From assembly GCA_903828455.1 (NCBI GenBank), contig CAIKMJ010000008.1, forward strand, positions 1 to 64,000: DNA of 64,000 nucleotides, in the 5' to 3' direction. The notes under the pieces are model-generated. The model was not told where the DNA came from. It did not search any database and saw nothing but the letters and a program-made list of their open reading frames with translations. This DNA comes from an uncultured Acidobacteriia bacterium. GTDB taxonomy: Bacteria > Acidobacteriota > Terriglobia > Bryobacterales > Bryobacteraceae. Of the stretch, positions 24,993 to 45,632 are shown one piece after another. The first letter of the stretch is position 1; each line of letters begins with the position of its first letter. A program made the position numbers and the translations under genes.

Positions 24993-25337
24993 TGGCGTGA
25001 AACAATCCGCTGGACGGCGTCACTAGCATTTGTACGAAATCTCTCATGGAGCAGGGGTTTTCATTGCGGGGCTAAAAAAAACCGCAATGGTGCGGGTAGT
25101 TCCTGTAAAATTAAAGCCATAAGCGGAACGCTGTATTTTTCGCGCGGCGAGCATGGCGCGGGCGCGTTCGCCGGATGTCGATTGCCGGGTCCTTGTTCGT
25201 TCCGGTGCATCACTGAAATCTGTTTCATCAATACTTGCGGTGACTGCCGGCACTGGAGCTGTTTCTCAACGCTATCGACTGAGAGGGATGCTGGAATTGA
25301 TTCAAAACACAACATGTTGCGGGGATCGGGTCGGATT
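24993..25337. other. gap before the long operon, with an inverted repeat
   Basis: 345 bases without a convincing gene between the 585-residue and 798-residue CRTAC1 genes. AT-richer than its surroundings. It holds the inverted repeat at 25062-25089 and an A-run (25074-25081). The long operon that ends at 45632 would have its promoter here, but I cannot pick out -35/-10 boxes with confidence. Confidence 0.5.
25062..25089. promoter_or_regulatory. inverted repeat CATTGCGG...CCGCAATG
   Basis: Perfect 8-bp arms at 25062-25069 and 25082-25089 with a 12-base spacer containing an A-run. The cores are the same ATTGCG/CGCAAT hexamer found four times before the histidine kinase gene. There is no T-run after it on the plus strand, so it is more likely an operator than a terminator, though the latter for the upstream gene is not excluded. 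Confidence 0.45.
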
Positions 25338-30276: not shown

Positions 30277-31994
30277 CACGAGCACGCAAGTCCGTAATAG
30301 CAGCCGCGCTCGCCCTCCCGCTCAGCGTCTGGGCTTTCGCAGAAATTGAAGCGAAGATTCATTTCGAGGATGTCTCGGCAAAATCCGGCACGCAGGTGCA
30401 GCACCACACGCGGCGCTTCAATGGCCCCAATGCCGACGTGCTGCGGATGTTCACCTCGGGCGGCGCTTCGGCGGCCGTTTATGATTACGATGGCGACGGC
30501 CTCGACGATATCTTCGTTACCGATTCCGACAACGGCAAGGTTAACCATCTCTTCCATAACAACGGCAACATGACGTTTACCGACGTCGCCGTGCAGGCCG
30601 GCGTGGCGAAAGGAAACGATCCCAATACCATTGTTGCCGACGCGCTTTGGCTTGACTACGACAATGACGGTAAGGAAGATCTGCTGGTCGCCCGCTTCGG
30701 CACGCCGATCCTTTATCACAACGAAGGTCACGGCAAGTTTAAGGATGTCTCGGCCGCATCCGGCCTGAATAAGTTCGGCAACACCATTGCGGTCATTGCC
30801 TTCGATTACGATAACGACGGCTATGTCGATATCATGCTGGGCAATTACTTTAAGCCCGTCAATCTGCTCGAACTGAAGGATCCGCATGTGCTGCCCAACG
30901 ATCTGGACAATGCGGTGAATGGCGGCGGCGTCACGCTCTGGCATAACAACCACAACGGAACGTTCACTGACGTCACCGAAAAGGCCGGCTTCAGCAAGCA
31001 CACCGGCTGGACGCTCGATCTGGGCCACGGCGACTTCAATAACGACGGTCTGCAGGACGTGTATCTCGCGTGCGACTATGGCACCGACCGCATCTTCTTC
31101 AACAACGGCGACGGCACTTTCACCGAGAAGACCCAGACCGCCATCGGCTTCGACACCCGCAAGGGCATGAACGTCGATATTGCCGATTACGACAACGACG
31201 GCTGGCTCGATATCTACGTCACCAACATTACCGACGAATATATGAAAGAGTGCAATATGTTGTGGCATAACAACCATGACGGCACCTTTACCGACGTTTC
31301 GAAAGAAACCAATACCTGCGAAACGCTGTGGGGCTGGGCGGCAAAGTTCGGCGACTTCGATAACGACGGCTGGCAGGATCTGTTCGTCGTCAACGGACTG
31401 CGCTCGGGCAGCAAGGATAACTATATTCCGGTGCTGGTCAATCTCATCACGCAACCGGGTGTCGATTTCACGGACGTGCGTCTGTGGCCGAACATCGGTG
31501 AGATGAGCTGGAGCGGTTATCAGAAGAAGAAGATGTTCCGCAATCTCGGCGGCCAGGCGTTCAAGGAAATCTCGGCCGAAGCCGGTGTCGATAATGACAA
31601 AGATGGCCGCGGGCTCGCCATGGGTGATTTCGATAACGACGGCAAACTGGATTTCTTCCAGAGCAATGCCGACCAGTTGCCGATCTTCTACCACAACAAC
31701 ACGCAGGGCTCCGGCAACTGGGTACAGTTTGCGCTGACCGGAACGAAGTCGAATCGCGAAGCCATCGGCGCGCGCATCTCGATCACGGCCGGCGGACTGA
31801 CGCAGATTCAGGAAATCAACGGCGGCAACGGTTATGCCGGGCAGAGCATGCGCCGCGCGCACTTTGGTATCGGCAAAGCGACGAAGATCGACTCGGTCGA
31901 AATCCACTGGCCGAGCGGAGCCAAGGAAAAGATCACCAACGTGGCGATGAACAAGCTCAACAAGGTGACTGAAGGAAAGGGCCTGCAGCACTGA
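30273..31994 (+). CDS. CRTAC1 family protein
   Basis: 573 residues, GTG start overlapping the stop of the TPR gene. Signal peptide about 1-23 (ALALPLSVWAFA). Propeller loops YDYDGDGLDD, DYDNDGKED, FDYDNDGYVD, GDFNNDGLQD, ADYDNDGWLD, GDFDNDGWQD and GDFDNDGKLD; ASPIC/UnbV domain about 485-570 (NWVQFALTGTKSNREAIGARISI; IDSVEIHWPSGAKEKITNV). Close paralogue of the product of 27731-29449, so the operon holds a duplicated pair. One-base overlap with the next gene (TGATG). Confidence 0.93.
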   Translation: MTRARKSVIAAALALPLSVWAFAEIEAKIHFEDVSAKSGTQVQHHTRRFNGPNADVLRMFTSGGASAAVYDYDGDGLDDIFVTDSDNGKVNHLFHNNGNMTFTDVAVQAGVAKGNDPNTIVADALWLDYDNDGKEDLLVARFGTPILYHNEGHGKFKDVSAASGLNKFGNTIAVIAFDYDNDGYVDIMLGNYFKPVNLLELKDPHVLPNDLDNAVNGGGVTLWHNNHNGTFTDVTEKAGFSKHTGWTLDLGHGDFNNDGLQDVYLACDYGTDRIFFNNGDGTFTEKTQTAIGFDTRKGMNVDIADYDNDGWLDIYVTNITDEYMKECNMLWHNNHDGTFTDVSKETNTCETLWGWAAKFGDFDNDGWQDLFVVNGLRSGSKDNYIPVLVNLITQPGVDFTDVRLWPNIGEMSWSGYQKKKMFRNLGGQAFKEISAEAGVDNDKDGRGLAMGDFDNDGKLDFFQSNADQLPIFYHNNTQGSGNWVQFALTGTKSNREAIGARISITAGGLTQIQEINGGNGYAGQSMRRAHFGIGKATKIDSVEIHWPSGAKEKITNVAMNKLNKVTEGKGLQH

Positions 31995-34900
31995 TGAAAC
32001 CCGCGCGCGCTTTTGCCGTAGTCGCTGCCACCGGCGTCGCCGGACTTCTGGCGGCCGTTGTGCTGCATGGGTTCCAGCAAACCGGACCCACGGCACAGCA
32101 GGACGCGCTGCAGCAGGCGCGCAATCTGGGGAAGGCGTTTTTTGAAAACCCCACCACGCAGACGCAGGCTGTGGGCGAGTTCAAGAAGGCGCTCGATATG
32201 GCGCCCGACTCGCCTCGGGAGCGCGTCAACTACGGCCTCGCGCTGATTCATGCGGCGAAGACGGCCGAAGGAATCGCGGAACTGCAGAAGGCGCAGCAGC
32301 AGGATCCGAAGATTCCGCACACCTGGTTCAATCTAGGCATCCAGTATAAGAAGGCATCTGAGTACGACAAGGCCATCGCGCAGTTCGAAGGCATGGCCAA
32401 ACTGGTGCCGGATGAGCCGATTACTCACTACAATCTCGGCGTGCTCTACAAGCTGACGGGTAAAGCCGACGAAGCGGTAAAAGAGTTCGAGGTCAGTTCA
32501 AAGCTGAATCCACGGCTCGCGGGTCCTCACTTTCAGCTTTACAACGCATATCGCGCCGCCGGCCGCACCGATGACGCGAATCGCGAGCAGCAGGTGTTTC
32601 AGGACATCAAGAAGGCGCAGGTTGGCGCGGCCGTTCCCGAGGATCTGGAATGGAGCTTTTACGCCGAAATATACGACGTAACCGATGCCGGTCTTGCAGC
32701 TGAAGCGGTGGCGGCGAAGCCGATCAAACTTACGGCGAAGAAGCTTGGCGAGGGACTCGACGCCGCAACCGCCGGGATGACTTCGGCGGATATTGACGGC
32801 GACGGGAATCCGGAACTTATCGCGTGGTCGGAGAAGGGAATCGTCATCTATAAGAACGGCGCGGCGGCGGCTGTCGATGCCGGCCTCGGCGATGTGAAAG
32901 ATGTCGTGTCGGTCACGGCCGGCGATTTCAATAACGACGGTCTGGCGGATCTTGCGATCATTACGAAAACCGGCGCCGAACTTTGGGTCAACGCCAAGGG
33001 TAAGTTCTCGAGGTCGGCAGTTACGCTGCCTGCGGGAAAGTACGCCAGGGCGGTCTGGATCGATTACGACCACGACTACGATCTCGATCTCTTTCTGCTC
33101 GGCGATAAGTCCGTACTCATGCGCAACAACGGCGCTGCCGGATTCAGCGACGTTTCCGACACGTTCCCGTTTGTCAGCGGTAAGGCCGTTGATGGCACGC
33201 TTTACGATCTGGTTCCGGATACCGATGGCATGGATCTCGTGGTTGCGTACTCTGATCGCGCCGGCGTGATCTATGTCGACAAACTCGGCGGACGTTACGT
33301 GGCGCAGGATCTGCCGGCACTGGGGGCCGGCGCAAAGTCGATAGCGGCGATGGATCTCGATAACGATGCCGCTACCGATCTGATTGTTGCCACAACGACC
33401 GGCGCCTACCCGATCTTCAATCGCCGCGGGACGCTCGAAAAGGGTGCTCCCCTCGCTTCGGCCAACGGCGCGCTGGCGCTGGTGGATCTCGAAAACCGCG
33501 GGCTTGAAGACGTGGCGCTTTCCGCCGCGATCTTCCGCAATGAAGGCCTCGGTAAGTTCTCTTCTCAGTCAGCCGCCGGCATTGGTGACTCAGTGGTGCT
33601 CGGGGCGCTCGACTTCGATGGCGACGGCCGCAGCGATCTCGCCGCCGTCGGCAAAGACGGTGTTGTCACGCTCCTGCATAACGATACCGACGCCAACCCC
33701 TGGCTGCGCGCCACGCTGCAGGGCGTGAAGAATATCAAACTGGCCTATGGGGCGAAGATCGAACTCAAGGCCGGGGCGCATTATCAGAAGCTGACTTACT
33801 TCGGTCAGCCGCTCGTGTTCGGCATGCGTGGTTATAAGGAGACGGAAACCGTCCGCATTACGTGGCCGAATGGACTGATCCAGAACGAAGTCCACCAGGC
33901 GGCGGGCAAGGCCTTCACTTACAAGGAAGCGCAGCGCCTGTCCGGATCCTGCCCCATGATCTTTACGTGGAACGGTCATGGCTTCCAATTCCTGACGGAC
34001 GTGCTTGGTGTTGCGCCGCTCGGCGCCAGTTCCGGCGACGGCAATTACTTCCCGGTGGATCACGATGAGTATGTGCAGATCCCCGGTGAAGCCATGCAGC
34101 AGAAGGACGGTAAGTACGAGATTCGCATTACTGAAGAGTTGCGCGAAGTATCTTATCTCGACCGTATTCAGTTAATCGCGGTCGATCATCCGGCCGGGGC
34201 GGCTCTCTATACGAACGATAAGTTCAAGTCGCCGCCGTTTCCCGAATTCCGCCTGTTCGGAGTAACGAACGCCATCCACCCGAAAACCGCGCGTGACGAT
34301 TCCGGTCGTGACGTTCTGCCGAAGCTGCTGAAGAAAGACCAGACTTATCCCGATGGCTTCGATCGCGACTTCACCGGCACCGCCGCACTCCATCATCTGG
34401 ATCTCGATTTCGGCAACGTGGCCCGCGACAATCGCGCCGTCCTCGTTCTAAGCGGCTGGGTTGACTGGGCCGATGGCAGCACGTTCCTCGCCCGCTCGCA
34501 GGAGACGAAGGAAGGTCTTATCATGCCGTACCTGCAGGTGAAAAATGCAAAGGGCGAATGGCAGACCGTGATTCAGGATATGGGCATCCCGGCAGGCAAG
34601 CCGAAGACTATTTCGGTGGATCTTACCGGTAAGTTCCTTTCTTCTTCCCGCGAAGTCCGCATCGTGACGAATCTTTGTGTGTACTGGGATGAGATCTTCC
34701 TCAGCGAGCAGACAGGCAAGCCCGAAACGATTCAGACGCCTCTCGACGCGCAGACCGCAGACCTTCACTTCCGAGGGTTTTCAAAACCTGTGATCCATCC
34801 GCAGCGCCGTCAGCCGGAGGACTTTATTTACGATCAGGTCACAGCGACTTCCACGTGGAATCCCACGCCCGGTAACTACACTCGTTATGGAGACGTTCGC

Positions 34901-35221
34901 CCGCTGCTCGGCGCCATCGACGACAAGATGGTTCTGATGGGTTCGGGCGACGAACTTACCCTGCGTTTCGATCCAGCCGCCCTGCCCGCGCTTCGAGCCG
35001 GCTGGAAGCGCGACTTCCTGCTTCTGGTCGACGGCTGGGCCAAGGATGCCGACGCCAATACGGCCTTCCCGAAATCTGTGGAACCGCTTCCATTCCACAG
35101 CATGAGCGCTTATCCTTATTCCAATAAGGAGCGTTATCCGAACGACGCGGAACATCGCGAGTATCTCGATCAGTACAACGTCAGACCGGCCCTCCGCCTG
35201 ATCAGGCCACTGACGAACTAA
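31994..35221 (+). CDS. TPR - FG-GAP/UnbV fusion protein with distinctive C-terminal domain
   Basis: 1075 residues. N-terminal export signal or anchor (about 5-25), TPR array about 35-215 (PHTWFNLGIQYKKASEYDKA, ITHYNLGVLYKLTGKADEAV), degenerate FG-GAP propeller about 245-570 (SADIDGDGNPE, AGDFNNDGLAD, MDLDNDAATD, LDFDGDGRSD), ASPIC/UnbV-like unit about 575-645 (YGAKIELKAGAHYQKL; ETVRITWPNGLIQ), then a 420-residue C-terminal region starting SCPMIFTWNGHGFQFLTD, a motif I recall from other TPR/UnbV proteins. The propeller loops are less Ca-like than in the shorter paralogues. Its stop is 21 bases before the ACP start, so secretory and biosynthetic genes look co-transcribed. Confidence 0.9.
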   Translation: MKPARAFAVVAATGVAGLLAAVVLHGFQQTGPTAQQDALQQARNLGKAFFENPTTQTQAVGEFKKALDMAPDSPRERVNYGLALIHAAKTAEGIAELQKAQQQDPKIPHTWFNLGIQYKKASEYDKAIAQFEGMAKLVPDEPITHYNLGVLYKLTGKADEAVKEFEVSSKLNPRLAGPHFQLYNAYRAAGRTDDANREQQVFQDIKKAQVGAAVPEDLEWSFYAEIYDVTDAGLAAEAVAAKPIKLTAKKLGEGLDAATAGMTSADIDGDGNPELIAWSEKGIVIYKNGAAAAVDAGLGDVKDVVSVTAGDFNNDGLADLAIITKTGAELWVNAKGKFSRSAVTLPAGKYARAVWIDYDHDYDLDLFLLGDKSVLMRNNGAAGFSDVSDTFPFVSGKAVDGTLYDLVPDTDGMDLVVAYSDRAGVIYVDKLGGRYVAQDLPALGAGAKSIAAMDLDNDAATDLIVATTTGAYPIFNRRGTLEKGAPLASANGALALVDLENRGLEDVALSAAIFRNEGLGKFSSQSAAGIGDSVVLGALDFDGDGRSDLAAVGKDGVVTLLHNDTDANPWLRATLQGVKNIKLAYGAKIELKAGAHYQKLTYFGQPLVFGMRGYKETETVRITWPNGLIQNEVHQAAGKAFTYKEAQRLSGSCPMIFTWNGHGFQFLTDVLGVAPLGASSGDGNYFPVDHDEYVQIPGEAMQQKDGKYEIRITEELREVSYLDRIQLIAVDHPAGAALYTNDKFKSPPFPEFRLFGVTNAIHPKTARDDSGRDVLPKLLKKDQTYPDGFDRDFTGTAALHHLDLDFGNVARDNRAVLVLSGWVDWADGSTFLARSQETKEGLIMPYLQVKNAKGEWQTVIQDMGIPAGKPKTISVDLTGKFLSSSREVRIVTNLCVYWDEIFLSEQTGKPETIQTPLDAQTADLHFRGFSKPVIHPQRRQPEDFIYDQVTATSTWNPTPGNYTRYGDVRPLLGAIDDKMVLMGSGDELTLRFDPAALPALRAGWKRDFLLLVDGWAKDADANTAFPKSVEPLPFHSMSAYPYSNKERYPNDAEHREYLDQYNVRPALRLIRPLTN

Positions 35222-35242: not shown

Positions 35243-35509
35243 ATGGCTGAAACTTACACAGAAGATCAGATTCGCGCCGAGGTGAAGCGCCTCATTGCCA
35301 ACGTGACCGAACGCGAGCCGGAGGAGGTTTCCGACACCGCCTCATTCAGCGAGGAACTGGGCGTCGATTCCCTGATGGCGATGGAAGTGATGATCGCCGT
35401 GGATAAGAAGTTCAAGATCGATATTCCGGAAGAAGAGTTCAGCAAAGCCACGAATGTGAACGAATCCGTCGCGCTGGTGCAGCAGTGGCTGGCCAAGGCG
35501 TCGGCCTGA
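35243..35509 (+). CDS. acyl carrier protein
   Basis: 88 residues. The phosphopantetheine attachment Ser43 is in EELGVDSLMAMEVM, the standard DSL helix. Acidic overall, with four predicted helices. GGAG lies eight to nine bases before the ATG. This is not the housekeeping FabD-G-AcpP context; it opens the biosynthetic half of the long operon and is followed at 18 bases by a ketosynthase gene, so it is most likely a dedicated carrier for the pathway encoded at 35.5-44 kb. Confidence 0.94.
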   Translation: MAETYTEDQIRAEVKRLIANVTEREPEEVSDTASFSEELGVDSLMAMEVMIAVDKKFKIDIPEEEFSKATNVNESVALVQQWLAKASA

Positions 35510-35527
35510 TTCGGGCGAGCTGAATCC

Positions 35528-36745
35528 ATGCGACGAGTCGTTATCACGGGTGTTGGAGTCGTTTCCCCCGTCGGCACGGGAAAAGACGTGTTCTGGAACG
35601 CGCTTATGACGGGGAAGTCCGGCATCGGGCCCGTGACGGCGTTCGACAGCACGGCCTATGCGGCGCACATTGGCGGAGAGGTGCGGGATTTCGATCCCGC
35701 GCTTTACGTCACGAAGCAAAAGCCGCAGGATCTGGGCCGCGCGTCGCAACTGGCGATTGCGGCCGCCCGCCTTGCCTTTGGCGATTCGTCCATTGACCTC
35801 GGGGGCATCCCGCGCCGCCGCATTGGTGTTTCGATGGGCACCACGTCGGGCGAACCGCTCTTTGTGGAAGAGTACAACGATAAGCTGCACGCGGGCGGTC
35901 CGGACGCTGTGCCCGCACACTGCTTTGCCCGCTACCCGTGTCATGTGATGCCGGCACATGTGGCGATTGAGTTCGATCTGCAGGGGCCTTCGATCATGAT
36001 CCCCACCGCCTGCGCCGCCGGCAATTATGCCATCGGCTACGGCTTCGACCTCATCCGCACCGGCCGCGCCGATCTGATGATTGCAGGTGGGGCCGACGCC
36101 TTCTCCCGCATCCCGTATCTCGGCTTTGCCCGGCTCGGAGCGATCGCTCCGGAGCGCTGCCAGCCATTCGACAAGAACCGCAAGGGCATGATTCCCGGTG
36201 AAGGTGCCGGAATGCTGGTCCTTGAACCGCTCGATACCGCGCTCGCCCGCGGCGCCAAAATCTACGCAGAAGTTCTCGGCTATGGTGTCAGCTGCGATGC
36301 TCACCACATGACGGCCGCGCATCCCGATGCCGACGGCCCTATCCGCGCCATGAGCGCCGCGATGCTGGACGCCGGCGTTACCACCGACGACATCGATTAT
36401 CTCTGCGCGCACGGCACGGGCACGCCCACCAATGACCGCATCGAATCGCTCGCCGTCCGCACGCTGTTCGGCGAACGCGCGCCCAAGGTACCGATGAGCT
36501 CGATCAAGTCGATGCTCGGGCACACGATGGGCGCGGCCAGCGCGATTGAAGCCATCGCCTGCGCGCTGGCTCTGGATACGGGCTGGATTCCGCCCACCAT
36601 CAATCACGAAGAGCCGGATCCGGACTGCGGCCTCGACATCGTGCCGAATCATGCCCGGCAGACCAATCCGCGCGTGCTTCTCAACAACGCTTACGCCTTC
36701 GGCGGCAACAACGCTTCGCTTTGTCTCGGACGCTTTTCCAACTAA
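35528..36745 (+). CDS. beta-ketoacyl-ACP synthase (FabF/KSalpha-like), catalytically complete
   Basis: 405 residues. Thiolase-fold ketosynthase performing decarboxylative Claisen condensation on ACP-bound chains. Complete catalytic set: Cys162 (TACAAGNYAIG), His295 (AHGTGTPTND), Lys327 and His332 (SSIKSMLGHTMGA). The N-terminus RRVVITGVGVVSPVGTG is canonical. It is followed directly (7 bases) by a second, degenerate ketosynthase, the layout of KSalpha/chain-length-factor pairs in type II polyketide, aryl polyene and ladderane-type clusters. It could also be a plain FabF paralogue, but the company of HMG-CoA reductase and a desaturase argues for specialised metabolism. Confidence 0.93.
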   Translation: MRRVVITGVGVVSPVGTGKDVFWNALMTGKSGIGPVTAFDSTAYAAHIGGEVRDFDPALYVTKQKPQDLGRASQLAIAAARLAFGDSSIDLGGIPRRRIGVSMGTTSGEPLFVEEYNDKLHAGGPDAVPAHCFARYPCHVMPAHVAIEFDLQGPSIMIPTACAAGNYAIGYGFDLIRTGRADLMIAGGADAFSRIPYLGFARLGAIAPERCQPFDKNRKGMIPGEGAGMLVLEPLDTALARGAKIYAEVLGYGVSCDAHHMTAAHPDADGPIRAMSAAMLDAGVTTDDIDYLCAHGTGTPTNDRIESLAVRTLFGERAPKVPMSSIKSMLGHTMGAASAIEAIACALALDTGWIPPTINHEEPDPDCGLDIVPNHARQTNPRVLLNNAYAFGGNNASLCLGRFSN

Positions 36746-36752
36746 CGACGCC

Positions 36753-37973
36753 ATGCCTACAAACTCTCTGTCTCCGCGCATCGTCGTCACCGGAACCGGC
36801 GTGATTTCGCCGCTCGGCGCCGGCCCCGACGCCTTCGCCGACGCTCTCTGGAGCGGCACTTCCGCCATCGCCGCCAGCGAACGCTTTCCGGGTAGTCACA
36901 TCGCCGAATTCAAGGAATTCAATCCCGCTCCGTGGCTTGGCAACAAGGGCGTCCGGATACTGGACCGCGGCACACGCTTCCTCTGCGTGGCGGCGCAAAT
37001 GCTGCTCGACTCTACCGGTCTGCTTCAGGACCCGGCCAGTCAGGGCGACGCCATGCTTGGCCTCGTCTGTGGCACCATGTTCGGCGGCATCCACAGCATC
37101 GCGACCTTCGACATGAGCGGCCTGACCGAAGGCCCCAGCATGGTCAGCCCCATGGAGTTCCCCAACACCGTGATCAATGCGCCGGCCGGCCAGGCCGCCA
37201 TTAAACACAAGTTGCGCGGTGTTAACTCCACCATTTGTTCCGGGCTTGCTTCGGGCCTGGCAGCCATCAGCTATGCGGCGGAGTTTTTGCGTTTCAATCG
37301 TGCCCGCTACCTGATGGCCGGCGGCATGGAAGAGGTTTGCGACGAGGCCTCGCTCGGTTTCCGCAAGCTCGGCCTGCAGTCCGCCAGCGGTTCGGTGCGT
37401 CCGTTTGCCGATGGCCGCGATGGCACTGCTGCCGGAGAGGGCGCTGCGCTCTGGATGCTCGAAACAGAAGAGACTGCGGCGGCGCGCGGTGCAACGCCCA
37501 TCCTCGAAGTTTGCGGCTTCGGTTCGGCTCACGATGCCATCGACAGCATTCGCTTCAACCCGGATGCGAGCGGGGCCACGGCCGCCATCGGGCAGGCACT
37601 TGAAGAATCGGGCATCGGCCCCGAGCAGATCTCCTGCATAATCTCCGGCGCGAGCGGCAGCCCCGAGGGCGATGCCATGGAAGCGAAAGCGCTGCACGCG
37701 GTGTTCGGCTCGCTGCTCGAAAGCATCCCCGTTTCGGCTCCCAAGGCCGCTACCGGTGAAGTGATGGGCGGCTCGGGCGCATTCTGCGCTATCGCGGGCG
37801 GTTTGGCGCTGCTGCGGCAGGAAGCGCCGCCCACGGCGGGCTTCACCGGTTCGTCGCTCGGCCTGCGGCTCTCCGGCTCGGCGCAGCCCTTCAGTGGCGA
37901 TTACGCGCTGGTGAACGCATTCAGCTGCGATGGCAACAATGCCTCTCTGGTGATTCGCAGATGGACAAAGTAA
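36753..37973 (+). CDS. ketosynthase-like protein lacking both catalytic His (KSbeta/CLF-like)
   Basis: 406 residues, aligned end to end with the upstream ketosynthase. The nucleophile is kept (Cys162 in STICSGLASGLA), and the Lys is kept (Lys331 in APKAATGEVMGG), but the HGTGT motif reads SGASGS (298-303) and the second His is Glu336. Without the two His it should not decarboxylate malonyl-ACP. Classical chain-length factors instead lose the Cys (usually Gln), so this is a different kind of degeneration. Likely a heterodimer partner of the KS at 35528-36745, perhaps binding or transferring an acyl starter through Cys162. Overlaps the next gene by 13 bases. Confidence 0.88.
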   Translation: MPTNSLSPRIVVTGTGVISPLGAGPDAFADALWSGTSAIAASERFPGSHIAEFKEFNPAPWLGNKGVRILDRGTRFLCVAAQMLLDSTGLLQDPASQGDAMLGLVCGTMFGGIHSIATFDMSGLTEGPSMVSPMEFPNTVINAPAGQAAIKHKLRGVNSTICSGLASGLAAISYAAEFLRFNRARYLMAGGMEEVCDEASLGFRKLGLQSASGSVRPFADGRDGTAAGEGAALWMLETEETAAARGATPILEVCGFGSAHDAIDSIRFNPDASGATAAIGQALEESGIGPEQISCIISGASGSPEGDAMEAKALHAVFGSLLESIPVSAPKAATGEVMGGSGAFCAIAGGLALLRQEAPPTAGFTGSSLGLRLSGSAQPFSGDYALVNAFSCDGNNASLVIRRWTK

Positions 37974-39184
37974 CGCCGCCTGGGCCCGTTGAAATCGGGC
38001 CGGACGACCTTCTCCCGCGGTTGCGCGACAACGGTTACGACGCGGAGCGCGTCACGCGCCGCCGCGCCTGGATCGAGCGCAAGACCTCTGCCGAACTGAC
38101 GCATATCGGCAGCATCTCCTGGGATTCGGAGATGATGCGCGGTAATATTGAAAACCCGATCGGCGTCGCGCAGGTGCCTATGGGCGTCGCCGGCCCGGTG
38201 CTGGTTAACGGCCTGAACGCCAATGGACTTTTCTACGTCCCGATGGCGACCACCGAAGGCGCGCTGCTGCGGAGTTACGAGCGCGGCATGGTGGCGCTCA
38301 CCAAATCCGGCGGCGTGCAGACGGCGCTTCTCGCCGATGAGAATCAGACCGCGCCGGCATTCTTCTTCAACGACACCGCCGAGGCCGCCGCTTTCGCGCC
38401 ATGGCTCGACGCCCACATGGATGATCTCCGCCGCGCCGCCGCCGAAACCACGCGCCACGGCAGGCTGACCAGCCTCAAGTGTTACCAGACCGGACGTCAG
38501 GTCATCGTCAACTTCGGTTTCCATACCGGCGACGCGCAGGGCATGAATATGATCGTGCGCGCCACCGACGCCTGCTGTAAGTGGATTCAGGCGAGCCACC
38601 CCGGCCTCACGTATTTCCTCTTCAGCGGCATGTGCGGCGAAAAGCGCGCGAGCGGCTTCCTCATGTCGCGCGGCAAAGGCAAGCGCGTCACCGCCGGAGC
38701 GTTGCTGACGCACGAAGTGCTGCGCCTCTACCTGCACACGACGGCCGATCAGATGTGGCGGCTCTGGCAGTCGACCATTGTCGGCAACATTCAGGCCGGC
38801 GCCATCGGCTACACCGGACACGCCGCCAACGGACTGACCGCGATCTTCATCGCCACAGGGCAGGACGTTGCCAACGTGGTGAACTCTTCCTGCGCCGCCA
38901 CGATCTTTGAGCCGCATCCGAAGGGTCTCTACGTGAGCACCACGCTCTCCGCTCTTTCGGTCGCCACCGTCGGCGGAGGCACCGGTCTTCCCACCCAGCG
39001 CGAAGCCCTGAAAATTATGGATTGCCACGGCGCGGGCAAGGCCGCCAAGCTGGCCGAAATCGTCGCCGCCGCCATCCTTGGAGGCGAAGTCTCCATGGGC
39101 GGCGCCATCGCGTCCGGCGAGTTTGTCGGCGCCCACGAACTTTATGGCCGCAATCGCCCGGCTGCGGCGGAGGAAACCAGGTGA
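37961..39184 (+). CDS. HMG-CoA reductase-like enzyme (class I type)
   Basis: 407 residues. Family motifs in order: NIENPIGVAQVPMGVAGPV, TTEGALLRSY (catalytic Glu), HTGDAQGMNMI (substrate/NADP region), GEKRASGFLMSRGKGKRV (catalytic Lys in EKR, where DKK is usual), GQDVANVVNSS (catalytic Asp) and GAHELYGRNR (catalytic His). The four catalytic residues therefore appear present. The known reaction is NADPH reduction of HMG-CoA to mevalonate. No HMG-CoA synthase or mevalonate kinase is in the window, and it is locked into a ketosynthase operon by overlaps on both sides (13 bases, then GTGA), so it may reduce a different thioester. Confidence 0.92.
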   Translation: MDKVTPPGPVEIGPDDLLPRLRDNGYDAERVTRRRAWIERKTSAELTHIGSISWDSEMMRGNIENPIGVAQVPMGVAGPVLVNGLNANGLFYVPMATTEGALLRSYERGMVALTKSGGVQTALLADENQTAPAFFFNDTAEAAAFAPWLDAHMDDLRRAAAETTRHGRLTSLKCYQTGRQVIVNFGFHTGDAQGMNMIVRATDACCKWIQASHPGLTYFLFSGMCGEKRASGFLMSRGKGKRVTAGALLTHEVLRLYLHTTADQMWRLWQSTIVGNIQAGAIGYTGHAANGLTAIFIATGQDVANVVNSSCAATIFEPHPKGLYVSTTLSALSVATVGGGTGLPTQREALKIMDCHGAGKAAKLAEIVAAAILGGEVSMGGAIASGEFVGAHELYGRNRPAAAEETR

Positions 39185-39924
39185 GTGACTCCAGCGAAAA
39201 GAAAGTTGTCCTGATAACCGGCGGCAGCCGCGGCATCGGCGAAGCTATCGTACAGCGTTTTGCCGAAGCCGGATATTCCGTCGCCTTCACGTACGCTTCC
39301 AATCAGGCCGCGGCGGACGCAGTCGTTTCCCGCATCGCCGCCGCCGGCGGTTCCGCACTGGGACTGGTTGCCGACGTCCGCGATTTCCCGCGCGCCTGCG
39401 ACGTTGTGAAGGAAGTGCAGGACGCCCTCGGGCCGATCACGGTGCTCGTTAACAACGCCGGCATCAAGAAGGACATGCCGCTGATGAAGATGGATCCGGC
39501 ATCGTGGCAGGATGTGCTCGATACCAATCTCACCGGCACGTTCAATTACACGCGCGCGCTTATCGGCTCGCTCGTTCGCACGGGCGGTTCGGTGATCAAC
39601 GTGGCCAGCACCAGCGGCGTCACCGGCATGGCCGGCCAATCGAACTACAGCGCATCGAAGGCCGGCGTCATCGGCTTCACGCGCGCGCTGGCCAAAGAGG
39701 TGGTTCGCTTCGGCGTTCGCGTCAATGCGATTGCCCCCGGCTTCATCGAAACCGACATGACCGCTTCCATCGACGAAGCCGTGCGCAAAAAGCTCTACGC
39801 GCAGATCCCCATGGGACGCGCCGGCTCCGCCCGCGATGTTGCGCAGCTGGCGTTGTATCTCGCCGGCGACGACACCACATACGTCACCGGGCAGGTCTGG
39901 AACATGGATGGCGGTCTAACATAG
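39181..39924 (+). CDS. 3-ketoacyl-ACP reductase (FabG-like SDR)
   Basis: 247 residues from a GTG overlapping the previous TGA. Classical SDR: cofactor loop TGGSRGIGEA (Gly-rich TGxxxGIG), NNAG at 88-91, catalytic Ser in NVASTSGVTG, YSASKAG with catalytic Tyr and Lys, and IAPGFIETDM. The Arg after the Gly-rich loop and general likeness to FabG suggest NADPH-dependent reduction of beta-ketoacyl-ACP, supplying the ketoreductase for the KS pair upstream. No dehydratase gene of the FabZ/FabA type is seen in the operon. Confidence 0.92.
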   Translation: MSDSSEKKVVLITGGSRGIGEAIVQRFAEAGYSVAFTYASNQAAADAVVSRIAAAGGSALGLVADVRDFPRACDVVKEVQDALGPITVLVNNAGIKKDMPLMKMDPASWQDVLDTNLTGTFNYTRALIGSLVRTGGSVINVASTSGVTGMAGQSNYSASKAGVIGFTRALAKEVVRFGVRVNAIAPGFIETDMTASIDEAVRKKLYAQIPMGRAGSARDVAQLALYLAGDDTTYVTGQVWNMDGGLT

Positions 39925-39943
39925 CGTTTACGGTCGAGCACCT

Positions 39944-41521
39944 ATGAGCGACAGTCCGTACACTATATTCGGACGCGAATACCCCCGCAGTTACGACGCC
40001 ATCATCATCGGCGCGGGCATCGCCGGTCTGTTCTGCGCCAACATTCTCGCCAAAGGCGGGATGAAGGTTCTGCTGCTTGAGCGCCACTTCATGCTCGGCG
40101 GCTTCTGCTCCACTTTCCGCCGCAAAGGTTTCATCTTCGACGCAGCCACGCACTTCTATCCGCTGCTCGGCAACCCCACCACTCTCACCGGAAAGCTTTG
40201 CAAGGAACTCGGCGTCGAAACTGAATGGGCCCGCATGGACCCGGTGGACCAGTTTCATCTCCCCGGACTGCCCACCTTTACCGTTCCCGCCGAACTCGGC
40301 CCGTACGTGGAACGGCTCAAACAATGGTTTCCCGACGAAGCCGCCAACATCGATAACTACTTTCAGGAACTCCGTCAGGCCTACATGTACGGCCTGCTCT
40401 ATTACTTCAAGGGCGTATCCAACGATCAGGCCGAGCGCCTCGAAAAGTACTCGATGCTCGATAAGCTGAACGAGCATTTCCGCGACGAGCGCCTCAAAGT
40501 CATCCTCATGGGCGACGCCCCGCACTGGGGCTCTTCGCCCGATGCCACGTCGTACGTCTTCGACGCCATGCTGCGGCTGTCCTACTTCCTCGGCAATTAT
40601 TACCCGATGGGCAGTTCGCAGAAATTTGCCGACGATCTGGGTAAAGCCTTTACCGAGCGCGGCGGCAAGATCCTCAAGTGCGCTTCGGCCGACGCCATCC
40701 TCACCGAGAACGGCAAAGTCACGGGCGTTCGCATCCACACCGTCACCAAACGCGAGCCGGAATATTTCGACTTTCACGCCCCGGTCGTCGTATCCAACGC
40801 CGACGCTCTGCACACCTACCGCGACCTGCTCGGCGAGGAGCACCGCAGCGAATGGATGCTCCAGCATCTCAGCTCGCTCAAGCCCTCCTTTGCCTGCTTT
40901 CTGACGCACGTTGGCCTGCGCGGCATGGATCCCAGGCGGCTCGAAGAGGCCGAAGGCTACTACTGGAACACGCTCGACCCGAAGAACATCGTTCGCGACG
41001 TCTTCAAGATCTTCGTGCCCACGCGGTTCGATCCCTCCATTGCGCCGCCCGGCTGCCAGATCATCATCGTGCAGCGTCCCACGCCCAAACGCGTTGTCGA
41101 TATTGCCGATTACGATGCCTATAAGGCCGAAGTCCACGAAAGCACGATGGCGCGTTTGCGTGAACGCCTGCCCGGAATTGAAAACCACGTGGTGACGGCA
41201 TCGAGCGCCTCGCATCACACGTCGTATCGCTTCACCAACAACTACCAGGGCGCGATGCTGGGCTGGGAGATGTCGCCCGATCAGCTTGGCCCGCGCCGTC
41301 TGCCCATCTATACGCCCGTCGATAACCTGTACCTGACCGGCCACTGGACGCAGCCTGGCGGCGGTATCACCCCTGTCATCGTTTCCGCCCAGCGTGTCGC
41401 CCGCGCCATTCTGACCGGGCGCGACAGCGGGCGCGACCTCGCCGAACAATACTTCGGCTTTAATTCCTCAGCCCGCGCCGGCTATGCCGCAGAGAGTCAA
41501 CACCACGGAGTGAATAAATGA
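39944..41521 (+). CDS. FAD-dependent phytoene desaturase/carotenoid isomerase-like oxidoreductase
   Basis: 525 residues. FAD-binding Rossmann motif YDAIIIGAGIAGLFCANIL, then LLERHFMLGGFCSTFRRKGFIFDAATHF, the pattern of the CrtI/CrtISO family; C-terminal FAD motif VDNLYLTGHWTQPGGGITPVIVSAQRVARA. The substrate of such enzymes is usually a long isoprenoid or polyene; here it might desaturate or isomerise the chain built by the ACP/KS pair. Starts 19 bases after the reductase gene and overlaps the TetR gene by four bases (ATGA). No other carotenoid gene (crtB, crtE) is in the window. Confidence 0.9.
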   Translation: MSDSPYTIFGREYPRSYDAIIIGAGIAGLFCANILAKGGMKVLLLERHFMLGGFCSTFRRKGFIFDAATHFYPLLGNPTTLTGKLCKELGVETEWARMDPVDQFHLPGLPTFTVPAELGPYVERLKQWFPDEAANIDNYFQELRQAYMYGLLYYFKGVSNDQAERLEKYSMLDKLNEHFRDERLKVILMGDAPHWGSSPDATSYVFDAMLRLSYFLGNYYPMGSSQKFADDLGKAFTERGGKILKCASADAILTENGKVTGVRIHTVTKREPEYFDFHAPVVVSNADALHTYRDLLGEEHRSEWMLQHLSSLKPSFACFLTHVGLRGMDPRRLEEAEGYYWNTLDPKNIVRDVFKIFVPTRFDPSIAPPGCQIIIVQRPTPKRVVDIADYDAYKAEVHESTMARLRERLPGIENHVVTASSASHHTSYRFTNNYQGAMLGWEMSPDQLGPRRLPIYTPVDNLYLTGHWTQPGGGITPVIVSAQRVARAILTGRDSGRDLAEQYFGFNSSARAGYAAESQHHGVNK

Positions 41522-42123
41522 AGCCGCTCGATTCCGACCGTCAGCGCCAGGTTCTGGATACCGCCCTCCAGCTGTTCGCCAAAGAAGACCTGAAAGACAT
41601 CACGCTGGATAAGCTGACCAAAGCCTCCGGTGTGCCTGCCTTCGACATCATTCGCCATTTTCATTCGAGCGACAACATCCTCAAAGCCGTGCTGGAGCGC
41701 GAGCTCGAACTCATGGCAGCCGCCGCCCAGGCGCCTGAGCTGCGTCTGCCCGGTGAAACGCTTGCCGATGAGCTCCACGTCGTCGCCGGCGTGATTCTCG
41801 ACCAGTACCGCCGCCGGCTCCCCTTCATGACGAAGTTGCTGCAGGAGACGGTCACCGATCCCAAGGTGGGCGCGCTCTTCTACAGCACCTTTATCGTGCA
41901 GGGCCGGCTGCTGTTTACCGAATTTCTGCGCGTCCGCAAGGAGGTCGGCGAACTGCGGGACGACATCGATATCGAAGTCGCCGCGGCGATTTTTCTCGCC
42001 GGGCTGACCGGTACATTTGTCACTTACGAGATTTACGGCGGCCGCCAGGTGGAAACGCTGGACGATGAAAGACTCCTGAAGCACATGTGTGCTACTTTTT
42101 TACACGGCGTCATTAAGCCGTAG
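41518..42123 (+). CDS. TetR/AcrR-family transcriptional regulator
   Basis: 201 residues. N-terminal HTH: RQVLDTALQLFAKEDLKDITLDKLTKASGVPAFDIIRHFHSSDNIL, shown here only to mark its extent (about 10-57), with helix 2-3 at TLDKLTKASGVPAFDI; ligand-binding all-helical domain about 65-195. Probably a local regulator of the operon responding to an acyl or polyene intermediate. It lies inside the operon it may control, so regulation would be autogenous. No palindromic operator was found with confidence. Confidence 0.88.
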   Translation: MKPLDSDRQRQVLDTALQLFAKEDLKDITLDKLTKASGVPAFDIIRHFHSSDNILKAVLERELELMAAAAQAPELRLPGETLADELHVVAGVILDQYRRRLPFMTKLLQETVTDPKVGALFYSTFIVQGRLLFTEFLRVRKEVGELRDDIDIEVAAAIFLAGLTGTFVTYEIYGGRQVETLDDERLLKHMCATFLHGVIKP

Positions 42124-42152
42124 CCGCCGCATCGCCGCAGGAGGGTGTTGCC

Positions 42153-43754
42153 ATGAATATTGCCGTTGCCGGATTCGACGGGCCTCTTTCGCGCGCCGTC
42201 CGCGTCGAACTGCAGCTGCGCGGGCATTCCGTGGTGGATGCCAAATCCGGCTGGCACATGGATGCCGCCATCTTCCTGCCCGGCGACCTCGGTGAATTGC
42301 AGGCTCTGGCGGCGCGGCCCGATCTGCCGCGCCTCGTCGTGCGCAGCCACGCCTACGCCTACGGCTCCAATCCCAAAAACCCCGGCCACATGGATGAGAG
42401 CCGCATCTCGCTGCTCCCTCCCGGCGACCCGGCGCAGCGCTGGCTTCGCGCCGAAGAGGCCGCCGCCGCGCATCCCAACTGGGCCGCCATCCGCCTCACC
42501 AATGTGACCGACCCCGGCGAGGGCGATCTCATCATCCGGAAGCTCTCGGCTTCCATCGCGACCCGGCCCGCCGGCCGCGACGCCAATCTGCAGTTCATCG
42601 GCCTCGCGGATGCCGCGCGCGCGCTCGTCGCCGCTGCCGAATCAAGTGCCCCCGGCATCTTCAACGCCGCCTGCCCCGGCGCCGTTCCGCTGAAGGAAGC
42701 TTTCAAGGCCGCCGGAACGCGCGGCATCGGCCTGCCCGAAACGGGCGAACTCAAACAGTTCGCCTTCAACTGGCATGTCTCCGGCGATCGCGCCGAACGC
42801 GAACTCGGCTTCCGCCCGCAACAAACCACCGTCGAAGCGCTTCGCGAATTCCTCGCGAAAAAGCCCGGCGCCAACCCCGGTCTGCTGAAAGACCGCTATG
42901 ACGACTGGGGCCTCGGCGTCGATTACATTCGCGCCTGGGGCTGGTGGTTCGCCTTCCTTCGCAACATCTACTGGCGCATCGAGCACGAAGGCATGGAGAA
43001 CATTCCCGCCACCGGCAAAGCCCTGTTCGTCTCCAACCACCGTGGCTTCATGCCGCTTGACGCGGTGATGCACCTGTCGCTGATTTTCACCCACCGCCAG
43101 CGGGTTCCGCGCTTCCTCATCATCCATTCGCTGCTGCGGATGCCGTTCCTTTCCAACTTCCTTACCAAGCTCGGCGGCGTCGTCGCCAGCCAGGAAAACG
43201 CGGACCGTCTGCTCGACCAGGGCGAACTCATCGGCATCTTTCCCGAAGGCATCCGCGGCACCTTCTCGCCGCTGAAGACCACCTACCGGCTGCGCAATTT
43301 TTCGAAGAGCGGCTTCGTCCGTATGGCCATCGAGCATCAGGTGCCCATTATTCCGTGTGCCGTCATCGGTCACGCTGAAATCTTTCCGATCGTCGGCCGC
43401 ATCGATTCCGGTTTCGTTGTGAAGGAACTCGGCTGGCCCTATCTGCCCATTGCGCCGCCGTTTCCGCTCGCGCCGGTGCCGCTGCCATCCAAGTGGCACG
43501 TCCGCATCCTGCCGCCGGTGCCTGTGGATCAGTTCGGCCCTTCCGATCTGGAAAACGACCGCCTGATGAAGAACTTCAGCGACTACATCCAGCACATTGT
43601 CCAGGCCAACCTCGACGATATGCTGCCGCGCCGCAAGAGCATCTTCCGGGGCAGGGAGGTGCTCAACGGCAAACCGCCCGCCGTGGAACCTTTTACGCCC
43701 TCGCGCCGCAGCCTCCACCGCGCGCCGGCCGATTCCGACAGCCCGCCGGCCTGA
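42153..43754 (+). CDS. SDR/epimerase-like - PlsC-type acyltransferase fusion
   Basis: 533 residues. N-terminal about 1-245 is an NAD-epimerase-like half with a degenerate Gly motif (AVAGFDGPLSRAV) and RAHAYAYGS-type sequence (VVRSHAYAYGSNPKNPG). The C-terminal about 255-500 is a glycerolipid acyltransferase domain with SNHRGFMPLDAVMH (His and Asp six apart, the spacing seen in MGAT-like members), FLTKLGGVVAS and IGIFPEGIRG. Ends in a basic Pro-rich tail. AGGAGGG is placed about ten bases before the ATG. Likely transfers the finished acyl chain to a lipid or sugar acceptor; inference. Confidence 0.85.
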   Translation: MNIAVAGFDGPLSRAVRVELQLRGHSVVDAKSGWHMDAAIFLPGDLGELQALAARPDLPRLVVRSHAYAYGSNPKNPGHMDESRISLLPPGDPAQRWLRAEEAAAAHPNWAAIRLTNVTDPGEGDLIIRKLSASIATRPAGRDANLQFIGLADAARALVAAAESSAPGIFNAACPGAVPLKEAFKAAGTRGIGLPETGELKQFAFNWHVSGDRAERELGFRPQQTTVEALREFLAKKPGANPGLLKDRYDDWGLGVDYIRAWGWWFAFLRNIYWRIEHEGMENIPATGKALFVSNHRGFMPLDAVMHLSLIFTHRQRVPRFLIIHSLLRMPFLSNFLTKLGGVVASQENADRLLDQGELIGIFPEGIRGTFSPLKTTYRLRNFSKSGFVRMAIEHQVPIIPCAVIGHAEIFPIVGRIDSGFVVKELGWPYLPIAPPFPLAPVPLPSKWHVRILPPVPVDQFGPSDLENDRLMKNFSDYIQHIVQANLDDMLPRRKSIFRGREVLNGKPPAVEPFTPSRRSLHRAPADSDSPPA

Positions 43755-43834
43755 GTTCGCTTCCGCCCGCTTGCCGAACGAATTGGCGCCCGGCAAAGTT
43801 GGAGGTTCGCCCTCCGGTGCGCTAGCTTGGTTAC

Positions 43835-44881
43835 GTGGATCAACGCGCAAATTTCGGCCTGGCTCTCGACGTCATGCAGCGCAGCGCAGGACTCGCTGCG
43901 CAGTTCCTTCCCGGCCACGAATTTCAGGAGGCCCGCAACAAGATTGAAGCCTTCCGCCTTTTCGCCTTTGTCGATGAGGAACTGAATCTTCCGAAGGACC
44001 GCACCGAAGCGCTTCCCGCCATGATTCGCCGCGCCTCCGCGCTCGGCGCCTACCGCTCCATCTGGGCCATGGAGGGCATTGCCCACCGCCACACCGAAAC
44101 GCTGCTGGCCAGCCGCGAACACGTCTCCGGTATGCTTGCCGATCCCGAAATTCCGGAGACCTCCATGGTCCCGATGCACGCCGGCATGGGCACAGCCTGC
44201 GCCGGTTTCCTGCTGGATAAGATGCCCGATGCCCCCGGCGCCGCCGTGCTGCACGATACCGTGCGGCGGTATTTCGATTTCTGCGCCATCAACTCGCGCA
44301 CCGGGTGGTTTGAGAATGCCGTCGAACCGCTCGGCCTCGGCGTCCGCAGCATGCATCCGCACCTGCTCGGCCCGATGAGCGACGCGGTCGCCGCCGTCGA
44401 CCCCCGCGCGTGCAATCTCTTCTGGCACGGCGTCGGCCGCTCGCTTTATTTCGTCCCCAGCAATTTCAACACGTTCGGCTCCGCGCATGCGCGCGCCATC
44501 CAGTCCGCGCTCGCCGAAGCGCCCACGCCCGAAGCCCGGCACAACGCTGTCGCGGGACTCGTTTGGGCCATCGCGCTCGTCAACATTCGCCACGCCGCCG
44601 TGCTGAAGAACCTGCTCCGCTCGACGCGCGACATCGCCATGCCCGAGGCCGTCATCAACGGCATCACCTCTGCCCTCATGGTCTGGAAGCATATGGTCCC
44701 CGCCGACGCCGCGTTCCTCCCGCCTTACCTGCGGCTCGCCTCAACAAACGATGCGGACGACCATCTCTGGAACGATCGCGTCGCCATCCCCTCGCTCCGC
44801 GCCTTCGCGGAGACTTATCCCGACCTGCTCAGCCACCACCGCGTCGCCACGCTCTTTGCTTATCGAGGACTACATGAGTAA
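43835..44881 (+). CDS. conserved protein, tentatively DUF1702/UnbL-like
   Basis: 348 residues from GTG. No membrane helix or signal. Sequence features: MVPMHAGMGTACAGFLLDK (about 112-130), a short DFCAINSRTGWFENAV segment, NLFWHGVGRSLYFVPSNF (about 192-209) and GLVWAIALVNIRHAAVL (about 240-256). The spacing of an H-x-G-x-G segment, a G-x-GRSL-x-FV segment and a later W-A-I/hydrophobic segment reminds me of DUF1702 proteins, which sit beside CRTAC1 (UnbV) genes in enediyne clusters (as UnbL). This is recognition by eye and could be wrong. Overlaps the DinB gene by eight bases. A GGAGG-TTCGC-CCTCC hairpin lies at 43801-43815. Confidence 0.55.
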   Translation: MDQRANFGLALDVMQRSAGLAAQFLPGHEFQEARNKIEAFRLFAFVDEELNLPKDRTEALPAMIRRASALGAYRSIWAMEGIAHRHTETLLASREHVSGMLADPEIPETSMVPMHAGMGTACAGFLLDKMPDAPGAAVLHDTVRRYFDFCAINSRTGWFENAVEPLGLGVRSMHPHLLGPMSDAVAAVDPRACNLFWHGVGRSLYFVPSNFNTFGSAHARAIQSALAEAPTPEARHNAVAGLVWAIALVNIRHAAVLKNLLRSTRDIAMPEAVINGITSALMVWKHMVPADAAFLPPYLRLASTNDADDHLWNDRVAIPSLRAFAETYPDLLSHHRVATLFAYRGLHE

Positions 44882-45632
44882 CTTACCCGTGAAGCCGGCA
44901 GTTCGCACGCAGACCGGCACCCTGGCCCAGACCAGCGCTCTGCTTCATGCCATCGATGGCGTCATCTCCCGCGTCGTGCGCGATCTGGTGACGCCCGGTC
45001 CCGCGCCCGGGCAGGAACTCCCGGTCGCCATGCGGAATTTCAGTGATGTCCGCCAGCGCACGCTCGAATTCGCCTGCAACATGACCTCCGCGCAGGCCGG
45101 TTTCCAGCCGGCGCCGGGCGCCTGGTGCATCGCTGAAGTTCTCGACCATCTGCTGCTCACCGAGCAGGCTTACCGCTCGCAGCTGCAGCGCCTGATCGAA
45201 CTCGCCCGCGCGGGCAAGGCCACTTCCCTCAGCATTTCCATGAAGGAGATGAATCCGTCCGTCGGACCCATTCCGCGCGACGTGATGCCGCTGTTTGAAA
45301 CGCCGCTGCGGATGATGAATCCCTTCATCCCGCACGCCTTCCGCGAAGCCATGATCCGCTTCCCGCTCATTGCCGCCATCAACCCCAGCAACACTGACCC
45401 GGCGCGCAGGGATATCGCGCTTCTTCGCGCCGAGCTGATCTCCTCGCTCGACGCCACCAAAGCCATTTTTGAACAGGACATACCGGCGCGCCTGAGCGAG
45501 ATGACCGTCTCTCACCCGGTGCTCGGCAACAATAATGTTGTGGAAATATTCAGCCTGATGACCGCCCACGAGCAGCGCCATCACGGGCAGATTCGCACGA
45601 TCCTCGCCAACCCGCGCCTGCCCGCCGGCTAG
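44874..45632 (+). CDS. DinB-like four-helix metalloprotein
   Basis: 252 residues. DinB/DUF664-type bundle: the first metal His is in WCIAEVLDHLLLTEQAY, the other two in MTAHEQRHHGQIRTIL near the C-terminus, so the three-His site of the family is intact. Such proteins include thiol transferases (bacillithiol or mycothiol dependent) and many of unknown role. The N-terminus (1-45) has no family match. Last gene of the long plus-strand chain; overlaps the preceding gene by eight bases and is followed by a hairpin. Confidence 0.82.
   Translation: MSNLPVKPAVRTQTGTLAQTSALLHAIDGVISRVVRDLVTPGPAPGQELPVAMRNFSDVRQRTLEFACNMTSAQAGFQPAPGAWCIAEVLDHLLLTEQAYRSQLQRLIELARAGKATSLSISMKEMNPSVGPIPRDVMPLFETPLRMMNPFIPHAFREAMIRFPLIAAINPSNTDPARRDIALLRAELISSLDATKAIFEQDIPARLSEMTVSHPVLGNNNVVEIFSLMTAHEQRHHGQIRTILANPRLPAG

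Follow-up and report, generated by a model that had tools for sequence, protein, structure and literature searches.

A conserved gene unit of Acidobacteriota that joins a ketosynthase pair to an HMG-CoA-reductase-family enzyme with a possible role in chain release

Gene content of the locus

We analyzed the first 64,000 nucleotides of contig CAIKMJ010000008.1 (assembly GCA_903828455.1) from an uncultured bacterium of the Bryobacteraceae (Acidobacteriota), hereafter called the window. The source genome comprises 4.40 Mb and is 98.6% complete. The subject of this study is a unit of ten genes at positions 35243-45632, which encode an acyl carrier protein (ACP), a ketosynthase (KS), a second KS that resembles a chain length factor (CLF), an enzyme of the 3-hydroxy-3-methylglutaryl-CoA (HMG-CoA) reductase family (HMGR), a ketoreductase (KR), a CrtI-like flavoprotein, a TetR-family regulator, an acyltransferase fused to a part that resembles short-chain dehydrogenases/reductases (SDR), a probable remote relative of UnbL, and a DinB_2 protein (Table 1). 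Open reading frames and Pfam and NCBIfam matches confirmed the ten same-direction genes that a first-pass annotation had described: all are present on the same strand, no intergenic gap exceeds 80 bases, and some neighbors overlap slightly. Three starts were refined, to ATG codons at 36753 (CLF) and 44874 (DinB_2 protein), and to a GTG codon at 39181 for the KR, resulting in a four-base overlap with the HMGR stop.

Pfam matches were obtained for the ACP, the complete KS, its KS-type partner, the HMG-CoA-reductase-like enzyme, the FabG-like reductase and the DinB protein, in agreement with the first reading. Other assignments held in part. For the TetR-type regulator, the TetR_C_7 match was just above and the TetR_N match just below the respective cut-off. 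The protein named a CrtI/CrtISO-like oxidoreductase matched a Pfam flavin oxidoreductase family, but its score for the NCBIfam family crtI_fam remained below the cut-off. In the SDR-acyltransferase fusion, the acyltransferase half was recognized, whereas the SDR half of the window copy had no Pfam match even at E 0.5; among three relatives tried, two (L093, L091) matched Epimerase above the cut-off and one (L082) below it.

The KS contains the motifs TACAAG, AHGTGT and LGHTMG and thus the Cys-His-His triad. In its partner, originally described as a His-less KS, both histidines are indeed absent; furthermore, the active-site column is also devoid of cysteine, and a cysteine is located three residues before it. 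Because the active-site Cys and the two His are missing, this protein was regarded as CLF-like. A KS with Cys-His-His, an adjacent CLF without catalytic residues, and a discrete ACP with the serine of a DSL motif together correspond to a type II polyketide synthase (PKS), and, as had been noted, no type I PKS was found among the ten genes with Pfam and NCBIfam. The best solved relatives of the KS and the CLF are chains B and C of the same PDB entry, 9s5h, and the second-best match of the KS was 6kxd (381 bits), the KS-CLF of the reducing type II PKS for ishigamide. The latter shares the KS-CLF-ACP logic with the window, but the window KS is nearer to 9s5h_B and has HMGR, CrtI-like and UnbV partners. 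The KS is also not the only one of its genome, in which two further strong KS genes were found on other contigs (other ACP genes were not searched).

Table 1. Coordinates of the ten-gene unit and of the genes upstream of it
Feature	Position	Strand	Basis and occurrence
ACP, phosphopantetheine site DSL	35243..35509	+	Pfam PP-binding 53.6 bits; sequence; best solved relatives 7auf/7ax5
KS, Cys-His-His	35528..36745	+	Pfam, NCBIfam; best PDB chain 9s5h_B, 506 bits; tree
CLF-like partner of the KS, lacking the active-site Cys and the two His	36753..37973	+	Best PDB chain 9s5h_C, 222 bits
HMGR	37961..39184	+	Pfam HMG-CoA_red 356.5 bits; Glu, Lys, Asp, His kept; Arg590 equivalent is Thr
FabG-like KR	39181..39924	+	TIGR01830 276.5 bits (below cut-off 297.75); NF009466 248.6 bits (above cut-off 222); Pfam SDR
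CrtI-like flavoprotein	39944..41521	+	Pfam flavin oxidoreductase; TIGR02734 169.7 bits (below cut-off 238.1)
TetR-family regulator	41518..42123	+	Weak Pfam; family also in L082, L084-L086, L046
PlsC-type acyltransferase with a degenerate, epimerase-like SDR part at its N terminus	42153..43754	+	Acyltransferase 73.6 bits; Epimerase in relatives
All-helical protein, likely remote DUF1702/UnbL relative	43835..44881	+	Profile-profile alignment
DinB_2 protein	44874..45632	+	Pfam 48.9 bits; family also in L082, L041, L046
TPR/FG-GAP protein, stops 21 bases 5' of ACP	31994..35221	+	UnbV match below cut-off; L079-L082 at same place
FG-GAP/UnbV protein	30273..31994	+	Also L079-L082, L087
TPR protein	29446..30276	+	Also L079-L082, L087
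FG-GAP/UnbV protein	27590..29449	+	Also L079-L082, L087; listed start overlaps preceding gene, true start probably downstream
FG-GAP/UnbV protein	25182..27734	+	Also L087
FG-GAP/UnbV protein	23235..24992	+	Pfam
Histidine kinase and LuxR-type response regulator that may control the unit	21233..23238	+	HisKA_3, HATPase_c, Response_reg, GerE

The HMG-CoA reductase clade and its conserved neighborhood

The HMGR was compared with its relatives in an alignment of 116 rows, duplicates included. Residues are numbered as in human HMGR, of which we take E559, K691, D767 and H866 to be catalytic and R590, D690 and K692 to be HMG-binding. Equivalents of the four catalytic residues were kept in all 44 rows of the close group (window included) and in all other groups. 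In contrast, the equivalent of R590 was lost in 43 of the 44 close rows and kept in the other HMGRs (59 of 59 and 13 of 13); the sole close row that retains it, L113, belongs to a locus without any other cluster gene. The window enzyme has Thr, Glu and Arg at the positions of R590, D690 and K692 and thereby departs from the HMG-binding pattern. After removal of copies, 41 rows without R590 remained; the D690 position was Glu in all of them, and the K692 position was Arg in 34, His in 3 and Lys in 4, whereas all 70 other rows had Arg, Asp and Lys at the three positions. The loss of R590 mapped to a single change with a Shimodaira-Hasegawa-like approximate likelihood ratio test (SH-aLRT) support of 100, on a quick tree (LG+G4, SH-aLRT only) that retains the copies L118 and L153 and hence contains 72 instead of 70 other loci. 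The window HMGR also scored below the NCBIfam cut-off (306.7 versus 441.8 bits). It is the single HMGR of its genome, in which DXR is present and HMG-CoA synthase (PF01154) gave no match; mevalonate is therefore unlikely to be its product, although mevalonate kinases were not searched. In summary, the enzyme shares the sequence family and the catalytic Glu, Lys, Asp and His with class I HMG-CoA reductases (6hr7, human), but it has lost the Arg that binds the HMG carboxylate, and its genome lacks a match to HMG-CoA synthase.

The other HMGRs (L113, L115-L158, L050-L078) are about 37-48% identical, keep R590, and have no KS/CLF, CrtI or UnbV match within 10 kb. They are carried by Gammaproteobacteria, Bacteroidota, Chloroflexota, Actinomycetota, Acidobacteriota and others.

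A scan of genome contigs yielded at least 558 confirmed HMGR matches, of which the best 80 are the named relatives; in a search of the phylum, 68 of 396 genomes had HMGR matches. L082 corresponds to the window gene for gene from an UnbV gene through DinB, L079-L081 keep the window genes from UnbV to CrtI, and L087 has UnbV and TPR genes upstream of the ACP. More distant loci with a partial or whole core were found in Acidobacteriota, Poribacteria, Zixibacteriota, Latescibacterota and one Planctomycetota record, and some of these add an RPE65-type oxygenase, a halogenase-like flavoprotein, ABC1-kinase-like proteins or a patatin.

To quantify synteny, loci whose HMGR lacks R590 were grouped as clade a, which comprises 41 loci after copies (L100, L101, L104, L118, L124, L153) were dropped, the window not counted. 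The HMGR fragments L046 and L075 were left out, L045 (a 302-residue fragment) was assigned to clade a by hand, and L114 (broken frame) was counted apart. Within 10 kb, KS/CLF was found in 31, CrtI in 35, ACP in 25, UnbV in 23, the acyltransferase in 22 and KR in 12 of the 41 loci, and FAD halogenase-like genes in 11, ABC1 in 10 and RPE65 in 9. The 70 loci that keep R590 had no KS/CLF, CrtI or UnbV within this distance, acyltransferase in 4, KR in 7 and ABC1 in 8 cases. When only loci flanked by 6 kb or more in each direction were considered (23 of clade a and 50 others), the counts were 20 versus 0 for KS/CLF, 21 versus 0 for CrtI and 14 versus 0 for UnbV. These results showed that the genes are associated by more than chance. 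Relatives thus keep the ACP-KS-CLF-HMGR genes together, the synteny that had been proposed as a check. All clade-a records that carry names are metagenome-assembled genomes. Two loci (L043, L098) contain HMGR-CrtI-UnbV-acyltransferase clusters that have no KS, CLF or ACP within the 9-10 kb to each side and may be a minimal form or a split cluster, and the Planctomycetota record (Singulisphaera; L111, L209) has KS, CLF, HMGR, CrtI, two UnbV genes, acyltransferase and ABC1.

Upstream of the ACP, positions 23235-35221 encode five FG-GAP proteins, four of them with a Pfam UnbV match above the cut-off, and one TPR protein. The gap of 21 bases that had been reported between the last TPR/UnbV gene and the ACP is real, but the UnbV match of this gene is below the cut-off (16.4 versus 23.4 bits). 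The TPR/FG-GAP gene lies immediately 5' of the ACP also in four named relatives (L079-L082), and an UnbV gene takes this place in L087. In eight loci (L043, L044, L089, L091-L093, L098, L111), CrtI and the acyltransferase are separated by UnbV genes that run in the same direction. The initial suggestion, a type II-like biosynthetic unit to which UnbV genes belong, is thus supported by relatives that keep these genes together. UnbV domains are not rare: eight were found in the own genome, five of them at 16.3-32.0 kb of the window, and six genomes contained 8 to 26 each. On the minus strand at 16273-20937, an UnbV protein is paired with a TPR protein of 997 aa that resembles multiheme cytochromes (matches of the Cytochrome_C554 and MtrC/MtrF-like types); in L084-L086, members of the latter's family are encoded 5' of the ACP together with an UnbV protein.

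The gene at 43835-44881 had no Pfam match, and no match to PF08012 above the cut-off was found in the own genome. Nevertheless, its family aligned with DUF1702 with hhalign probabilities of 93.6 (local) and 96.9 (other setting), and the alignment shares the motifs EG, HxGxG and GxGRxxxF. Controls were low, i.e. at most 0.5 for 11 other families, at most 0.4 for 20 column shuffles and 2.0 for the reversed profile; with the three strongest DUF1702 rows alone, the value fell to 45.4. The DUF1702/UnbL assignment offered as possible is therefore supported as remote homology, and the protein is likely, albeit not certainly, a remote relative of UnbL. UnbL and UnbV proteins belong to enediyne clusters, which contain UnbL/UnbV/UnbU and an iterative type I PKS. 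The window resembles them in UnbV proteins and a putative UnbL relative beside a polyketide-type synthase, but it has a type II KS-CLF instead of the iterative type I PKS. A small protein of about 140 aa, probably helical and phasin-like, is encoded between ABC1-kinase-like genes in L046 (3558-3989), and relatives of this protein occur in L042, L086 and L101; three of these four proteins match the UnbL-like family by BLAST.

Kinship with the anammox ladderane-candidate cluster

The anammox cluster kuste3603-3608 consists of genes for an ACP, FabZ, FabF, a non-canonical FabF, a phytoene desaturase and a radical SAM enzyme (PMC4790861). Its role in ladderane synthesis is proposed and unproven (PMC4790861, PMC2649909), no ladderane is reported from E. 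coli that expressed it (PMC4790861), and anammox bacteria are described as the only known source of ladderanes (PMC7298704).

When a CLF profile was run over 392 Planctomycetota genomes, 32 genomes scored 405-444 bits, followed by the CLF of the Singulisphaera cluster at 353 bits and all others at 338 bits or less. Hydrazine synthase alpha is a marker of anammox; HZS_alpha was present in 24 of the 32 high-CLF genomes, absent from 8, and present in one of eight lower-CLF genomes. The latter (G677), a planctomycete outside the high-CLF group, has 24 matches to this domain. ACP, KS, CLF and CrtI occurred in that order in all 16 anammox-type loci read out of the 32 genomes; 14 of these 16 loci, and 7 of the 8 included in the KS tree, come from HZS_alpha-positive genomes. 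The L186 locus also has a FabA/FabZ-type dehydratase gene, placed between those for ACP and KS, and a gene for a B12-radical SAM enzyme after CrtI, which gives the gene order of kuste3603-3608; the radical SAM enzyme was also confirmed in L195. The KS and CLF of L186 matched 9s5h_B and 9s5h_C with 816 and 753 bits.

In a tree of 87 KS and CLF rows, the 26 cluster KS formed a clade (SH-aLRT 98) that joined with 8 anammox-type KS (34 rows, SH-aLRT 100). This joint clade was separate from 13 of the 16 FabF-labelled rows, and the other three (L197, L198, L211) fell on the CLF side. The cluster CLF and the anammox-type CLF each formed one clade, the mutual placement of which was not settled. This was a quick tree with SH-aLRT support only, from which near copies (L080, L081), copies (L100, L101, L104, L209) and every second anammox-type locus were left out. 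The window CrtI-like protein is 33-37% similar to that of the anammox-type cluster, and the best solved relatives of the window ACP, 7auf and 7ax5, are presumably anammox ACPs.

The window thus shares homologous ACP, KS, CLF and CrtI genes in the same order with kuste3603-3608, but it has HMGR and KR between CLF and CrtI as well as acyltransferase, UnbV and UnbL-like genes. Pfam recognized neither FabZ nor a radical SAM enzyme in those window genes that were scanned, and therefore we do not call the unit a ladderane cluster. The first-pass annotation knew of no described pathway with this gene set; indeed, no description was found in open-licence PubMed Central full text, but the anammox cluster contains a homologous core in collinear order.

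Proposed pathway and alternative explanations

Three of the new findings stand on the firmest ground: the unit is conserved, the HMGRs form a clade that has lost the HMG-binding Arg, and the KS share a clade with those of anammox bacteria. Based on the gene content, the KS-CLF would elongate an ACP-bound chain, and the KR, or a housekeeping FabG where the KR is missing, together with a housekeeping dehydratase would make the chain unsaturated. The CrtI-like flavoprotein may add or isomerize double bonds. We infer that the HMGR would still reduce a thioester by four electrons, but with a different acyl group as substrate, in the simplest case the chain of the neighboring KS-CLF. Such a reaction, of the type that HMGR carries out on HMG-CoA, would convert an ACP- or CoA-bound acyl thioester of the cluster to a primary alcohol and thereby release the chain. 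The PlsC-type acyltransferase might then esterify the product, RPE65-type and halogenase-like flavoenzymes could tailor it in the variants, and FG-GAP/UnbV, UnbL-like and ABC1-kinase-like proteins may handle the hydrophobic product or place it at the envelope. The CrtI-like enzyme, the RPE65-type and halogenase-like partners and the anammox kinship suggest that the chain is a polyene or unsaturated in some other way; our guess for the product is an unsaturated alcohol or ester. For a conserved biosynthetic gene cluster, mainly of Acidobacteriota, in which KS-CLF, CrtI-like protein, HMGR, acyltransferase and UnbV/UnbL have these roles, we consider the balance to be even. The narrower proposal, that an HMGR clade was recruited for chain release in a type II polyketide or fatty-acid line and reduces an ACP-bound unsaturated chain to the alcohol, with the KS-CLF and CrtI shared with the anammox ladderane-candidate cluster, is tentative.

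Several observations weigh against these proposals. KS/CLF is absent within 10 kb in 10 of the 41 clade-a loci, only one of which (L090) has less than 1.5 kb of upstream DNA, while 9-10 kb of sequence flank the HMGR on each side in L043, L044 and L098; therefore, the HMGR may not always act on the product of this KS-CLF. CrtI is absent in 6 loci, and 18 have no UnbV within 10 kb, nine of them with more than 6 kb on both sides. With Pfam, no dehydratase was recognized in the window unit, and a KR is near the HMGR in only 12 of the 41 loci, so that either housekeeping enzymes must take over chain reduction or a polyene is not what is made. Of the aryl polyene cluster, which has a dehydratase, an ammonia lyase and an MMPL exporter, none of these hallmarks was found among the Pfam matches of the ten genes.

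Use of the kuste3603-3608 pathway, with the HMGR as an extra tailoring step, to make a membrane lipid of polyunsaturated or ladderane-like type would account for the shared KS clade, the common gene order, HZS_alpha in most of the high-CLF genomes, and the closest solved relatives of the ACP; the missing match to the FabZ-type dehydratase and the B12-radical SAM enzyme of the anammox core, the unproven ladderane production by the anammox cluster itself and the reported restriction of ladderanes to anammox bacteria make it rather unlikely. A specialized fatty-acid operon, forming a branched or unusual saturated membrane fatty acid or an ether-lipid precursor, would fit the FabF- and FabG-like members, the PlsC-type acyltransferase and the lack of a dehydratase or any other proven polyene-specific enzyme. 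However, unsaturated chains are indicated by a CLF without catalytic residues and by the CrtI-like, RPE65 and halogenase-like partners, and we regard such an operon as improbable.

The score of the HMGR far above the Pfam HMG-CoA_red cut-off and its intact catalytic residues are what would be expected of an ordinary mevalonate-pathway enzyme that by chance lies in a lipid operon. This is very improbable in view of the loss of R590 and the change of D690 in the whole clade, the score under the NCBIfam cut-off, the presence of DXR without a match to HMG-CoA synthase (mevalonate kinase not searched), and a KS-CLF neighborhood that other HMGRs do not have. Likewise, the UnbV/FG-GAP genes might constitute a separate surface-protein or redox module that neighbors the KS unit by chance, as the abundance of UnbV proteins in genomes, the 18 loci devoid of them, and the multiheme-cytochrome-like gene with its own UnbV gene would allow. 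None of the 70 other HMGR loci has UnbV within 10 kb, and the positions of UnbV genes between CrtI and acyltransferase in eight loci and of the TPR/FG-GAP gene directly 5' of the ACP in four relatives also speak for a link; we consider the separate module unlikely.

What is possibly novel is the chain-release enzyme, within otherwise known type II KS-CLF clusters. A type II PKS catalogue lists Acidobacteria among the phyla with KS-CLFs (PMC10132072), and therefore some of the present KS-CLFs may already stand in its tables; passages of PMC9821293 and PMC3174227 contributed nothing on this gene set. If chain release by the HMGR is true, a very well-studied enzyme family would gain a second role, at the end of an assembly line. 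The core of KS, CLF and CrtI, whose suspected part in ladderane biosynthesis is a long-standing question, would be placed in further phyla, and might become easier to study given a cultured carrier. An acidobacterial carrier could serve as a stand-in for learning the product of the anammox-like core, and the role of UnbV/UnbL outside enediyne clusters. The unexplained UnbV and UnbL proteins of those clusters would be tied to a second kind of synthase, which would narrow their possible roles.

Families of the histidine kinase and the LuxR-type regulator encoded at the upstream end of the UnbV genes were also found upstream of the ACP in one further locus (L112).

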